Shown: one piece after another, positions 46,751 to 61,810 of the stretch
How the letters are laid out: every line of letters begins with the position of its first letter
Position numbering within the stretch: position 1 is the first letter of the stretch
NCBI GenBank assembly: GCA_937872175.1
Contig: CALMPI010000024.1
Span: 1-64,000, forward strand
Length of the DNA stretch: 64,000 nt
Direction: 5' to 3'
Source: an uncultured Flavobacteriales bacterium
Lineage (GTDB): Bacteria; Bacteroidota; Bacteroidia; Flavobacteriales_F; PHOS-HE28
Notes under the pieces: generated by a model
The model's input: the letters and a program-made list of their open reading frames with translations, nothing else
The model's database searches: none
What the model was told of the DNA's origin: nothing
Program-made: the position numbers and the translations under genes

Positions 46751-46890
46751 CGCCAGGGATGGAAGCGGCGGCCCGGTGAAGCGAAGCGCGAGCAGCGCAC
46801 GGAGCGAGGAGGCTGCGCGGAAGGCGCAGACCCCGCAGCCCGCTGCGATGCCGCGTGCAGCAAGCCGGCCAAAGCGGACAGCCCGTGGGC
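46751..46890 (+). repeat. Structured intergenic repeat, copy A
   Basis: Begins GGGATGGAAGCGGCGGCC, holds a central GAGCGAGGAGGC hairpin, and ends AAAGCGGACAGCCCG. The same 5' and 3' blocks recur at 59434-59572 (plus) and 61811-61945 (minus). It resembles the short structured elements that litter Flavobacteriia intergenic regions (possibly Rfam Flavo-1), but I cannot confirm the family. It lies between the glycosyltransferase and dnaE and fills most of that gap. Confidence 0.55.
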
Positions 46891-46911
46891 GGCCACACCA
46901 CGTGCACGTCC

Positions 46912-49900
46912 ATGTACCTCAACTGCCATAGCTGGTTCAGCTTCACGCACGGCGTGATGAAGCCCGACGCGCTGCTGGAGGAGGCGGCGCGGATGGGCGT
47001 GCGCAGCTTCGCCCTCACCGACATCCATTGTTCGGCCGGCATCCCCGACCTGCTGCGGGATGCGCCGCGCTTCGGCGTGCGCCCGGTGGCGGGCATCGAG
47101 TTCCGGCTGGGGCCGAAGCTGCTGTACATCGGGCTGGCGAAGAGCAACGACGGCTTCCAGCGGCTGAACGAGCTGCTGAGCCCCCACCTGCTGGATGACG
47201 AGGCCCTGCCGGAGCGCGCACCGGAGCTGGACGATGTGTTCTTCATCTATCCCCTGGGCCACGCCCCCCGGCAGCTGCGGCCGAACGAGCGCGTGGGCGT
47301 CAGGCCGTCCGACCTCACGCGCCTGCCCTTCAGCCCTTGGGCGAAGCGGCCGCAGGACCTGGTGGCGCTGATGCCCGTGACCTTCCGCCAGGAACGGCGG
47401 GACGTCAACGTGCACCGCCTGCTGCGGACCGTGGCGAAGAACACCGTGGTGAGCATGCTGCCGAAGGAGGAACTGGCCGAGCCCGATGAGCACTTCCGCA
47501 GCGTGGAGGAGGCGCACCGCCTCTACCGCGACCGGCCGCACCTGCTGGTCAATGCGGAGCGCCTGCTGGAGCAGTGCACCATCACCTTCGACGGCAGCGA
47601 CAAGACGCGCGCGGCCTTCACGGGCGACATGCGCGCCGACCGCGAGAAGCTGCACCGCGACACGCGCGAAGGCCTGCGCTACCGCTATGCGGAGGTGACG
47701 CCGAAGATCCTCGCGCGCATGCACCACGAACTGGACGTGATCGAGCGGATGGGCTTCATCAGCTACTTCCTCATCAACCAGGACATCGTGGACCATGCGC
47801 GCAGCCGGGGCTTCTTCCATGTGGGGCGGGGCAGCGGCGCCAACAGCCTGGTGGCCTATTGCCTGCGCATCACGGACGTGGACCCGATGGAGCTGGACCT
47901 CTACTTCGAGCGCTTCATCAACCCCGCGCGCAGGAAGCCGCCCGACTTCGACATCGACTTCAGTTGGAAGGACCGCGATGAGGTGTACCGCTACGTGTTC
48001 GGCAAGTACAACGCTCCGGATGGACGTGCCGGCGGCATCCACGCGGCGCAGATCGCCACCTATACCACCTTCCAATGGCGCGGTGCGATCCGCGAGCTGG
48101 GCAAGGCCGTGGGGCTGCCCCCGGCGGAGATCGATGCCTTGAGCGAAGGCGACCACGGCTACTACGCCCGCGGACGGCCCAGCGCCTACGCGAAGGGCGG
48201 CGACCTCGACAAGGTGGCGCGCGCGGTGGTGCGTTACGCGCAGGAGCTGATCGGCATGCCGCACCACCTGGGCATCCACGCCGGCGGCATCGTGATCACC
48301 GAGAAACCGGTCGCGCACTTCACCGCGTTGTTCCGTCCGCCGAAAGGCTTCCCGGTGACGCAGATCAGCATGCTGGAGTGCGAGGACATGGGCCTGCACA
48401 AGTTCGACCTGCTGAGCCAGCGCGGGCTGGGTCATATCCGCGATGCGGTGGAGCTGGTGAATGCAGTACCTGCGCACGAGCCACCCCGCGACAGTGCCAA
48501 CGCACAAGCCCGGCACGTGACAATGCCCGCGCACAACAGTGCCCACGCGCAAGCACTGTCCACCGTGCGTGAAGGGCCGTGGGCGGGCACTGTTGCGCGA
48601 GAGCCCGGCGCGGTGGCACTGTCCACTCTGCGCGAAGGGCCGTGCGAGGGCACTCCAGCGCGGACCATCGACATCCACGACATCGCGCGCTTCAAGCAGG
48701 ACCCGAAGATCAAGGAGCTGCTGCGCAGGGGCGACACCATCGGTTGTTTCTACGTGGAGAGCCCCGCCATGCGCATGCTGCTGAAGAAGCTGAAGGTGGA
48801 CGACTACCTCGGGCTGGTGGCGGCGAGCAGCATCATCCGGCCGGGCGTGGCCGAGAGCGGCATGATGCGCGAGTACCTGCTGCGGCACAACGACCCCGAA
48901 CGTCGCAAGCTGGCCCCGAAGCGGCTGCTGGAGATCATGCCGGAGACCTACGGCGTGATGGTGTACCAGGAGGATGTGATCAAGGTGGTGCACCTCTATG
49001 GCGGGCTGGACCTGGAGGAGTCCGATCAGGTGCGGCGCGGCATGAACGTCCGCTACCGGGACCGACCGGAGTTCAAGGTGGTGGAGCAGCGGTTCTTCGC
49101 GAACTGCAGAGCCTTCGGCTATCCGCCCGGCGAGGCCGAGGAGGTGTGGCGGCAGATCCAGAGCTTCGCCAGCTTCAGCTTCGCGAAGGGCCACAGCGCC
49201 AGCTACGCGGTGGAGAGCTACCAGAGCCTCTACCTGAAGGCGCACCACCCGCTGGAGTTCCTGGTGGGCGTGGCCAACAACTTCGGCGGCTTCTACCGCA
49301 CGGAGTTCTACCTGCACGAGGCGAAGCGGGCCGGTGCGGTGATCGAGGCACCGTGCGTGAACCGGAGCGAGGAGTTGTGCTCCCTGCAGAACGTGGCGAG
49401 TGATGAGTGGCGAGTGGTGAGTGATGCCTGTCACGCTGAGCCTGTCGAAGCGCAGCATCACTCACCACTCGCCACTCGGTGCTCATCACTCGCCCCCCGC
49501 ATCTTCCTCGGCCTCTCGAACATCAAGAGCCTTGAGGGCGACACCGTGCAACTGATCCTGAATGACCGCCGCCGGAACGGCCCCTTCGCCGATCTGCAGG
49601 ACCTGCTGGAACGCGTGCCGCTGCATGTGGAACAGGCGCGCATCCTCATCCGCGTGGGCGCACTGCGCTTCACCGGCAGGAGCAAGCCCCAACTGCTGTG
49701 GGACCTCACGCTGCTGCACAGGCCCGCGAGCGTCACCGCCGACGGCGATCTCTTCATCACCCGCGTGGAGGAGCCCCGGTTGCCCGACCTGCAACACTAC
49801 CCGCTCGCCGATGCCTACGATGAGCTGGACCTGCTGGGCTTCCCGCTGTGCGATCCGTTCTCCCTCGTGGAGCAACAGTGCCCACACACGGAGCCGACGC

Positions 49901-50562
49901 ACGACAGTGCCCGCGCGCCAAAACCGCGCTCGACAGTGCCTGCGCACGAGCCAGTGCACGACAGTGCCCGCGCACAGAACCCGCGCACGAAAGTGCCCGC
50001 GCACAGCAGTGCCCACGCACAAGTACTGTCCACTGTGCGCGAGGGACCGAGCGAGGGCACTGTTGCGCGAGAGCCCGGCGCGGTGGCAATGTCCACTGTA
50101 CGCGAAGGGCCGCGGGATGGCACTGTTGCGCGAGAGCCCGGCGCGGTGGCACTGTCAACTGTGCGTGAAGGGCCGCGGGCGGGCACTGTTGCGCGAGAGC
50201 CCGGCGCGGCGGCACTGTCCACTGTGCGCGAAGGGCCGCGCGAGGGCACTGCCCGCATCCTGGCAAAGGAGATGAGCGCGTACGTGGGCCGGAACGTGGA
50301 GATGCTCGGCTACATGATCCATGTGAAGACGACCACCACACAAACAGGCAGCTACATGAGCTTCGGCTCCTTCATCGATCCCGCCGGCGACTTCTGGGAC
50401 AGCACGCAGTTCCCGCAGGTGGCGGCGCAATACCCCTTCCGCGGGCGCGGTGTGTACCGGCTCATCGGCGTGGTGGAGGAGGAGTTCGGGCATTGCGCCC
50501 TGCGCACGACCAGCATGGAGAAGCTCCCGTGGAGACCGGACCCGCGGTACGGCAACAAGTAG
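46912..50562 (+). CDS. DNA polymerase III alpha-type (DnaE) second polymerase, with in-frame repeat insertions
   Basis: 1216 residues from the ATG at 46912 (MYLNCHSWFSFTHGVMKPDALLEEA, the usual start of the PHP domain). The C-family catalytic Asp pair is in PPDFDIDF, Asp about 345 and 347. LHKFDLLSQRGLGHIRDAVEL, TIGCFYVESPAMRMLLKKLK and VAASSIIRPGVAESGMMREYLLRHND are near-invariant blocks. Homologues that I recall are about 1000 residues; the excess is three insertions at 48460-48663, 49395-49494 and 49873-50256, all multiples of three and free of stops. This alternative DnaE is often paired with DinB and an S24 regulator in Bacteroidota, both of which lie 10-16 kb downstream here. Confidence 0.9.
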   Translation: MYLNCHSWFSFTHGVMKPDALLEEAARMGVRSFALTDIHCSAGIPDLLRDAPRFGVRPVAGIEFRLGPKLLYIGLAKSNDGFQRLNELLSPHLLDDEALPERAPELDDVFFIYPLGHAPRQLRPNERVGVRPSDLTRLPFSPWAKRPQDLVALMPVTFRQERRDVNVHRLLRTVAKNTVVSMLPKEELAEPDEHFRSVEEAHRLYRDRPHLLVNAERLLEQCTITFDGSDKTRAAFTGDMRADREKLHRDTREGLRYRYAEVTPKILARMHHELDVIERMGFISYFLINQDIVDHARSRGFFHVGRGSGANSLVAYCLRITDVDPMELDLYFERFINPARRKPPDFDIDFSWKDRDEVYRYVFGKYNAPDGRAGGIHAAQIATYTTFQWRGAIRELGKAVGLPPAEIDALSEGDHGYYARGRPSAYAKGGDLDKVARAVVRYAQELIGMPHHLGIHAGGIVITEKPVAHFTALFRPPKGFPVTQISMLECEDMGLHKFDLLSQRGLGHIRDAVELVNAVPAHEPPRDSANAQARHVTMPAHNSAHAQALSTVREGPWAGTVAREPGAVALSTLREGPCEGTPARTIDIHDIARFKQDPKIKELLRRGDTIGCFYVESPAMRMLLKKLKVDDYLGLVAASSIIRPGVAESGMMREYLLRHNDPERRKLAPKRLLEIMPETYGVMVYQEDVIKVVHLYGGLDLEESDQVRRGMNVRYRDRPEFKVVEQRFFANCRAFGYPPGEAEEVWRQIQSFASFSFAKGHSASYAVESYQSLYLKAHHPLEFLVGVANNFGGFYRTEFYLHEAKRAGAVIEAPCVNRSEELCSLQNVASDEWRVVSDACHAEPVEAQHHSPLATRCSSLAPRIFLGLSNIKSLEGDTVQLILNDRRRNGPFADLQDLLERVPLHVEQARILIRVGALRFTGRSKPQLLWDLTLLHRPASVTADGDLFITRVEEPRLPDLQHYPLADAYDELDLLGFPLCDPFSLVEQQCPHTEPTHDSARAPKPRSTVPAHEPVHDSARAQNPRTKVPAHSSAHAQVLSTVREGPSEGTVAREPGAVAMSTVREGPRDGTVAREPGAVALSTVREGPRAGTVAREPGAAALSTVREGPREGTARILAKEMSAYVGRNVEMLGYMIHVKTTTTQTGSYMSFGSFIDPAGDFWDSTQFPQVAAQYPFRGRGVYRLIGVVEEEFGHCALRTTSMEKLPWRPDPRYGNK
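48460..48663 (+). repeat. In-frame repeat insertion 1 in dnaE (63-bp units)
   Basis: 204 bp between ELV and TIDIHDIARF. It holds CAGTGCC(A/C)-type motifs, then two copies of a 63-bp unit starting at 48556 and 48619 (translated ALSTVREGP..GTVAREPGAV). The left motif (AACAGTGCCC) is the reverse complement of a motif inside the 63-bp unit (GGGCACTGTT), so the whole insertion can fold back on itself. Confidence 0.8.
49395..49494 (+). repeat. In-frame palindromic insertion 2 in dnaE
   Basis: A perfect 23-bp inverted repeat (49405-49427 / 49455-49477) extended by an outer 10-bp arm (49395-49404 / 49485-49494). Its loop contains GCTGAGCCTGTCGAAGCG, a motif I recall as a very common dispersed repeat in Bacteroidota intergenic regions. 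It codes for about 33 residues between SLQN and RIFLGLSNIKS, where homologues have none. Confidence 0.85.
49873..50256 (+). repeat. In-frame repeat insertion 3 in dnaE (63-bp units)
   Basis: 384 bp between FSLVEQ and ILAKEMSAYVG. The left half has five or more CAGTGCCCGCGCAC-like motifs. The right half has four copies of the 63-bp unit starting at 50026, 50089, 50152 and 50215, exactly 63 bp apart. Same family and same internal inverted arrangement as insertion 1. Confidence 0.85.
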
Positions 50563-59611: not shown

Positions 59612-60274
59612 CTATGCCCCGCTGTTCCCCTGCTGCTGCTTCAACTCCTTTCGGACTTTGTACAACCGTTCGCTGAACCCACCCTCCTTCTCAAAGGCCC
59701 TGGCCTGGCTATCTACCTGTTTATCCAAAAGGTGGATGGCGATCTTGCATAGGGTCTGGCCCACGTTGGCGCTGATTTCCGCATAGGCTCGGTCCTTCAC
59801 GGTGCGTGGTGTGCGTGCAGTGCGCGGCCCTTCAACGGCCTGCAAGCGCTGGTCCTTCTCCCGCTCCCACACCGCCTTGATCCAACGTGCCACTTGGTCC
59901 GGGTTCTTGCAGCGCGCATTGCTCAGCTCCTTGCGACGCGGGTCCATCGGCGCCCACACCGGAAGCTTACGGTGCTCCAGGAACGATTCGTAATCCTTCC
60001 GCAGTTCATCGATACTGGTGCGTGCCACATTGGTCAGGTTCAGCTCCAACTTCTTCGTGGTGGCGCTGATCTTACTACCCTCGGCGATGTTGCGCACTCC
60101 GCTGCGTGCGGCCTGTTCCATCTGGTCGGCGGTACGGCTGCCCTTTGGGATGTAGCGGTCTACGAAGCGCACGGTCACATCGTACAGCAACTTGGCTACC
60201 TGGTAGCTTACCAGCTTCTCGTAGCCGCCGCTGGGGAAAAGGAGCTGCGGCCTTTCAGGAGTGGGCTTTTCCAT
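59612..60274 (-). CDS. Four-helix-bundle protein, 23S-rRNA intervening-sequence type
   Basis: 220 residues from the ATG at 60274. The helical core YEKLVSYQVAKLLYDVTVRFVDRYIPKGSRTADQMEQAARSGVRNIAEGSK followed by KKLELNLTNVARTSIDELRKDYESFLEHR is the four-helix-bundle family first named from 23S rRNA intervening sequences. The C-terminal extension with the KDRAYAEISANVGQTLCKIAIHLLDKQVDSQARAFEKEGGFSE pattern matches the variant with a four-helix suffix. Family members are common in Bacteroidota at variable sites and the function is unknown; relatives accompany retroelements. A TACTTTAG box lies 4 nt upstream. Confidence 0.8.
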   Translation of the reverse strand: MEKPTPERPQLLFPSGGYEKLVSYQVAKLLYDVTVRFVDRYIPKGSRTADQMEQAARSGVRNIAEGSKISATTKKLELNLTNVARTSIDELRKDYESFLEHRKLPVWAPMDPRRKELSNARCKNPDQVARWIKAVWEREKDQRLQAVEGPRTARTPRTVKDRAYAEISANVGQTLCKIAIHLLDKQVDSQARAFEKEGGFSERLYKVRKELKQQQGNSGA

Positions 60275-61644: not shown

Positions 61645-61677
61645 TTACAGGTCCAGGTGGAGGATGGTGCGTTCCAT
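61645..61677 (-). CDS. Ten-codon ORF repeating the DinB N-terminus
   Basis: Reads MERTILHLDL then a stop, the same ten residues with which dinB begins 27 nt downstream. Six of the ten codons differ, each only at the third base, and the dinB Asn-11 codon is replaced by TAA. Possibly a leader peptide or the stub of a displaced dinB allele. Translation is unproven. Confidence 0.45.
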   Translation of the reverse strand: MERTILHLDL

Positions 61678-61810
61678 GGTCGATCGGTCGATCAGATGAT
61701 GAGATGATCAGAAGATCGAATGCAGGGCCGCGTGCATTCCGGGTGGGCCAAGTGCGCTGGACATTATCTGATCATCTGATCCTCTCATTGTCCGATCCGC
61801 ATTAGGGCGC

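Follow-up and report, generated by a model that had tools for sequence, protein, structure and literature searches.

Rickettsia palindromic elements are palindromes of unique sequence, about 100–150 bp long, to which no gene is known to be linked. They lie in frame at tolerated positions in many unrelated genes (Ogata 2000, Claverie and Ogata 2003, cited in PMC6649704), as do the inserts described here, found within a gene for a second DnaE DNA polymerase of the error-prone type (dnaE2) in a 64,000-nucleotide stretch of DNA, hereafter the window, from an uncultured wastewater Flavobacteriales species (assembly GCA_937872175.1, contig CALMPI010000024.1, positions 1 to 64,000). A preliminary description of this gene had pointed to the Rickettsia elements; the likeness holds for in-frame read-through and for tolerated positions, and does not extend to a unique-sequence palindrome of that size. 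Compared by description, the present inserts differ in having arms of tandem 7–9 bp (or 29–63 bp) units, many families per genome and a linked gene, S23. As far as sequence comparison goes, the segments are insertions of palindromic tandem architecture, linked to S23 genes and matching their flanks in sequence, which turn over between species under a constraint of reading frame and have counterparts in other housekeeping genes.

The S23 protein is a pentamer homologous to Avd, a four-helix-bundle protein of diversity-generating retroelements. The resemblance of family PF05635 to Avd has been reported (PMC10053308), and one S23 protein of the present set also matches NF033474 (DivGenRetAVD, E = 1.4e-6); no reverse transcriptase or template/variable repeat (TR/VR) pair was seen in the S23 loci read, no genome-wide search having been made. 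In the rRNA intervening sequences (IVS) of Coxiella and Leptospira, an S23/PF05635 gene lies within a hairpin that is inserted into an essential gene, at a loop that tolerates it (PMC4990558), a combination that recurs here. In C. burnetii, heptamers (GACAGAT) whose number varies between strains lie just upstream of the S23p open reading frame (ORF), and the IVS has been called a selfish element of unknown mobility (PMC4990558). Whereas the IVS resides in rRNA and is excised by RNase III, the inserts in protein genes are gene-less copies kept in frame in the message, and the gene-bearing copies seen here are, unlike the IVS, intergenic.

Heptanucleotide repeats inside the cyanobacterial RNase P RNA gene were reportedly described by Vioque in NAR in 1997. 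Such STRR repeats share with the present inserts the tandem 7-bp unit, of which the 63-bp arrays described below are longer-period derivatives; here, in contrast, the heptamers form hairpin arms, stand in frame in proteins and are linked family by family to S23 genes. The TAACTGA repeats of Beggiatoaceae, Cyanobacteria and Bacteroidetes are patchy in distribution, with the comment that 'no mechanism is evident', in a paper that makes no mention of S23 or 'four helix' (PMC4679880). In-frame palindromes of Rickettsia, heptamer repeats of cyanobacteria and others, and the S23 genes of rRNA IVS are each already known, separately. Among open-licence papers, which provide weak evidence on this point, no link of S23 genes to dispersed heptamer hairpins or protein-gene inserts was found beyond the Coxiella remark, in which S23p-adjacent heptamers are reported without generalisation (PMC4990558). 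Two old puzzles, the role of the S23 protein and the spread of heptamer repeats, appear to meet at the locus considered here.

Three inserts in the dnaE2 gene

The window is part of contig C24 of the source genome (G000; 4.3 Mb in 52 contigs). The longest ORF of dnaE2 encodes 1235 amino acids (aa), and the likely start, ATG 46912, gives 1216 aa; the MYLNCHSW start of the product is common to homologues, the named ones among which come from uncultured Flavobacteriales, several of them apparently, by their record names, from activated sludge. Profiles PF07733, PF17657, PF14579, PF02811 and TIGR00594 (PolIII alpha / DnaE) match the product above cut-off, so that the preliminary description was right to see a normal DnaE on either side of the inserts, and the frame is open throughout, as it had also said. 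It had placed a 63-bp unit at two sites, in two and four copies. Both sites stand (inserts 1 and 3 in Table 1), the copy numbers being nearer 1.6 and 3.6, and a third in-frame palindrome, insert 2, had been overlooked.

Table 1. Coordinates of the dnaE2 gene, its inserts and related features, in positions of the window
Feature	Position	Strand	Basis
Host gene, second DnaE / DnaE2 (error-prone type) DNA polymerase	46855..50562	+	Profile matches
Insert 1, aa ~536-603, CACTGT-family palindromic array	48460..48663	+	Repeat and inverted-repeat analysis
Insert 2, aa ~843-882, GAGTGGC-heptamer hairpin	49381..49500	+	Near-perfect complementary arms
Insert 3, aa ~1006-1130, CACTGT-family palindromic array	49870..50253	+	Repeat and inverted-repeat analysis
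Intergenic array of period 8 (GATCAGAT), a further family of this kind	61671..61723	.	Array survey
Distant PF05635-like match, below Pfam cut-off, inside larger ORF	59990..60214	-	No flanking arrays

In inserts 1 and 3, units of about 29/57 bp run one way (48478–48534 and 49891–50004, the inverted motifs already noticed ahead of the arrays) and are followed by 63-bp units running the other (48555–48654 and 50025–50251, the latter array with a Tandem Repeats Finder score of 370 and 89% matches). Since opposite-orientation units precede each 63-bp array, each of these inserts forms one large imperfect palindrome. Insert 2 belongs to a different repeat family, that of the GAGTGGC heptamer. Its arms (49395–49427 and 49455–49494), which include a perfect stretch of 23 nt (49405–49427 / 49455–49477), flank a 27-nt spacer (window 49429–49455) with CACGCTGAGCCTGTCGAAGCG, presumably similar to a palindromic repeat that is widespread among genomes of Bacteroidota; the spacer is possibly a nested element. 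The RNA-folding z score is −9.8 for insert 2 and −4.9 for insert 3, and the median over inserts is −3.48, as compared with −0.30 for the dnaE2 core, against shuffles.

The AlphaFold2 model of the protein has a confident core (predicted local distance difference test, pLDDT, mostly 80–95), and the inserts account for the three longest stretches of low confidence (residues 522–583, 830–858 and 989–1111 of the modelled chain), with shorter ones at 416–428, 756–760 and 938–958. In an alignment with E. coli alpha, site 1 corresponds to about residues 575–592 and site 2 to about 811–831, while the domain order of the family would put site 3 just ahead of the OB-like C-terminal region. An intein or intron can be ruled out: Pfam and NCBIfam scans revealed no intein domain, and the inserts are low-complexity repeats.

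Of 73 homologues from beyond the genus, nearly all lack the inserts, as the idea of insertion had implied. The lengths of sites 1/2/3 in these homologues have medians of 23/37/34 aa and 95th percentiles of 24/37/35 aa, with two exceptions, whereas congeners with an alignable gene have 27–166, 44–97 and 38–255 aa. Between flanking anchors, the site of insert 1 measures 83 aa here and 21–24 aa in the out-of-genus homologues, and that of insert 3 measures 156 aa as compared with about 34–36 aa. Every alignable congener has segments longer than the outgroup at all three loops, albeit by little in the shortest case (27 aa). On these alignments, the dnaE2 segments are insertions confined to one genus.

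The repeat families at the three sites differ by species (ACAAGTC, TTGTCAG, ATTCGCC, GAGTGGC, GATCAGAT, GAATGCA and others). Among same-site pairs of inserts whose genes are at least 0.90 identical in the core, 53% have fewer than 5% of 9-mers in common. Unrelated inserts occupy site 1 in G025/G033 and in G018/G024, at 93–94% core identity, and all three sites in G023/G026 (core identity 0.93); entire inserts have been swapped between species whose surrounding protein is about 93% identical. At site 1 of G024 a CACTGT-type stretch lies inside the loop of a TTGTCAG hairpin, an arrangement of sequence that suggests a nested insertion at the hairpin tip. The longest insert of the genus, at site 3 of dnaE2 in G028 (L097, G028:C8:3900-9100; 255 aa between anchors), is a TRRREGAKGAEGL tandem repeat with an internal assembly gap.

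Across the inserts, the coding frame contains 0 stops where dinucleotide shuffles predict 89. The other five frames contain 493, that is, more than the 404 ± 15 of the shuffles, and this excess rules out that the repeats are intrinsically stop-free. The surviving inserts are those readable in the frame of the host gene.

S23 genes and their flanking arrays

When the genus was searched with insert 3, three genomes proved to have intergenic arrays of its family next to a short gene, identified with Pfam and NCBIfam as encoding the 23S-rRNA-intervening-sequence / four-helix-bundle protein (PF05635, TIGR02436). The source genome has nine PF05635 genes above cut-off, seven of which are visibly flanked by short tandem arrays of their own, those of the other two being weak or irregular; the dnaE2 inserts themselves contain no S23 gene. 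Tandem repetition of period 5–10 was then scored in the 250 bp adjoining the gene at 116 S23 loci of the genus (112 loci in the both-side counts), with the 95th percentile of background, 0.606, as threshold. This was exceeded by 56% of near flanks upstream and 62% downstream (60% overall), as compared with 4–5% at 800–1050 bp, and by 7% of the flanks of ParE toxin genes and 0% of those of cold-shock (CSD) genes of the same genus (p ~1e-23). These two controls rule out intergenic position alone as the cause of the enrichment. Both sides exceed the threshold at 50 of the 112 loci and at least one side at 83; the dominant period is 7, followed by 8 and 9.

The two flanks of a gene also resemble each other, since at least three inverted 8-mers are shared between left and right at 86% of S23 genes and in 30% of mismatched pairs. 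Between non-syntenic S23 loci, the number of shared flank 8-mers climbs from 9.0 to 25.0 as the identity of the S23 proteins increases; below 60% identity the raw counts give a modest signal, so that the assignment of repeat to clade rests on the bins above 60%. At 30 S23 loci sampled phylum-wide, the tandem score is 0.603 near the gene and 0.506 at a distance. Comparison of the gene sequences (dN/dS, the ratio of non-synonymous to synonymous divergence, about 0.05–0.16 where dS > 0.25) indicates that S23 genes are under purifying selection.

The inserts can be matched to resident S23 loci. Insert 2 shares its GAGTGGC array with the S23 gene at G000:C9:35089, and inserts 1 and 3 share their CACTGT family with the one at G000:C27:180. 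In G066, plain TCCACTG heptamers flank a non-syntenic, 78%-identical S23 gene, which suggests that the 63-bp unit is a higher-order form derived from TCCACTG/CACTGT heptamers. Overall, 18.4% of insert 11-mers occur in near S23 flanks and 5–6% in distal libraries of equal size, the dnaE2 core having no excess. The best match of an insert to an S23 flank of its own genome averages 5.64 shared 11-mers; the corresponding averages are 1.76 ± 0.46 after permutation of genomes (0/5000), 2.93 (p = 0.02) when the flanks come from the three nearest relatives and 0.98 when they come from the remaining genomes.

Several loci deserve separate mention. At one S23 locus shared by G000 and G009 (L136/L204), the gene is 99.4% identical and the distal flanks 94–95%, which suggests recent transfer or gene conversion of the element. 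Two adjacent S23 genes with common heptamer arrays (L147 and L180, G016:C23:284-1168) are a possible tandem duplication of the element. The octamer of the intergenic array in Table 1 also flanks S23 genes L235-L240 and L243 in congeners. In the source assembly, contig C26 ends in, and contig C27 begins in, such an array.

Copies in other genes and the origin of the inserts

The GAGTGGC pattern has 109 matches in the source genome, many of them in +/− hairpin pairs, as compared with 4 for the reversed control. In-frame copies lie in the housekeeping genes rsgA, radA and icmF, and the methylmalonyl-CoA mutase (mcm) gene has two inserts of two other repeat families. The RadA insert is present in G000, G033 and G025, and a short ordinary loop takes its place in G007 and G008, the proteins being 96–97% identical. 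Housekeeping proteins with roles in replication/repair (a polymerase), recombination and ribosome assembly (a GTPase) are thus repeated landing sites for short hairpin DNA read in frame. In G066, members of the CACTGT family occur at L116/L251 (G066:C6 ~48400-50200) and L129 (G066:C1:8011-8080), the latter of which appears, by eye, to be in frame in an acyl-carrier-protein/aminotransferase-fusion-like gene.

The 63-bp unit, which had been taken for a selfish entity, is confined to dnaE2 in the source genome: a genome-wide search returned no further copy, other matches having at best E = 0.03, and the unit itself is therefore no dispersed repeat there. What had been proposed as an undescribed in-frame repeat family survives as a set of lineage-specific palindromic insertions, the single 63-bp family being replaced by many palindromic families of 7–8-mers, and of units of about 29–63 bp derived from them, linked to S23. 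A 464-kb genome sample contained about eight period 7/8 arrays at the threshold used; given this rarity, three inserts within 2 kb of dnaE2 represent a marked concentration. In the same survey, four ORFs that cover arrays matched nothing in Pfam and were set aside as spurious.

We consider it probable, at roughly 70%, that the inserts derive from non-autonomous, S23-linked hairpin elements that land in permissive protein loops. The full-length element would consist of an S23 / PF05635 gene between two arrays of a family-specific unit of 7–9 bp (or a derived longer one), and the inserts would be gene-less copies of it, comparable to miniature inverted-repeat transposable elements (MITEs). Such elements would land in, and replace each other at, a few residue-tolerant loops, three in DnaE2, one in RadA and others elsewhere; within genes, only in-frame, stop-free copies would persist, to be translated as what the structure model predicts to be disordered linkers. 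The S23 protein may act in trans, copying or seating hairpins of its own repeat, probably at single-stranded hairpin loops, which would explain both the nested copies and the rRNA IVS, the latter as elements of the same kind in an RNA gene. The catalytic step might be provided by a host enzyme, by template switching during replication or by a reverse transcriptase. The link lends itself to a direct test, since the prediction is that an S23 gene recognises the repeat that belongs to it.

Several observations weigh against this interpretation. The loci examined showed no transposition event, no enzyme and no target duplication, and S23 proteins have no known catalytic activity. At 29 of the 112 S23 loci there is no detectable array of period 5–10, the loci having been chosen from the top of the hidden Markov model (HMM) ranking and not randomly, and some insert families (ACAAGTC, CTVDPLGRP and TRRREGAKG) have no matching S23 flank among the loci fetched. 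The stop count carries some bias because the longest ORF was taken per locus. Finally, own-genome matching partly reflects shared ancestry, as the comparison with nearest relatives (p = 0.02) indicates; shared ancestry accounts for part of it, not all.

Alternatively, no mobile element may be involved, slippage and quasi-palindrome template switching remaking 7–9 bp arrays wherever they are tolerated, with S23 genes as passengers that prefer hairpins. Array growth and shrinkage and imperfect copies everywhere fit such a process, as does the absence of a visible enzyme, and template switching has been documented to generate perfect inverted repeats (see the discussion in PMC6649704). Local slippage, however, predicts no shared sequence across loci and is disfavoured on that ground, one specific unit recurring at many unlinked loci of one genome (the 109 matches against 4) and tracking both the S23 protein family in non-syntenic loci and the resident S23 gene of the same genome; we regard this explanation as unlikely. 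It is more improbable still that the inserts are palindromes like the repetitive extragenic palindromes and bacterial interspersed mosaic elements (REP/BIME), moved by a REP-associated tyrosine transposase (RAYT)/IS200-type transposase or another host recombinase, with S23 as an incidental neighbour. The hairpin architecture and MITE-like dispersal do recall REPs (PMC3733652), and a host nuclease or transposase could supply the missing catalyst; yet the arms are tandem 7–9-mers and not 20–40 bp REPs tagged with GTAG/CGTC, and no transposase gene came to notice next to the S23 arrays that were read, no genome-wide RAYT search having been made. That the inserts are near-universal in the genus and always in frame might hint that they serve DnaE2 adaptively and are kept by selection on their sequence, for instance as diversified linkers that tune fidelity or the binding of partners. 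This seems very improbable for segments that are predicted to be disordered, whose sequence is fully exchangeable between close species and whose kind recurs in the unrelated RsgA, RadA, IcmF and methylmalonyl-CoA mutase. An assembly artefact or misjoined repeat, for which the draft state of the assembly (52 contigs, with C26 ending and C27 beginning in such arrays) might speak, has a negligible chance, since the three sites recur in independent assemblies, including G009 (a single contig), the near-complete G024 (7 contigs) and G004 (4 contigs).

If the S23-linked hairpin elements are real, it is tempting to go further, though tentatively and with slightly less than even confidence, and to propose that S23/IVP four-helix-bundle proteins are trans-acting factors of a widespread and hitherto unrecognised class of minimal mobile elements, each a small gene with palindromic 7–9-mer arms, that insert into hairpin loops and stand behind rRNA IVS, heptamer repeats of STRR type and in-frame hairpin inserts of housekeeping proteins in Bacteroidota and probably beyond. 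The inserts provide a natural record of insertion-tolerant protein loops and a source of new disordered protein segments.

Other features of the window

The distant PF05635-like match in Table 1 probably lies outside the system and may be a divergent, immobile member of the family. At positions 1–905 the window contains long tandem repeats (237/120/141 bp) that are coding and read as cysteine-rich repeats, probably of a secreted or adhesive repeat protein.

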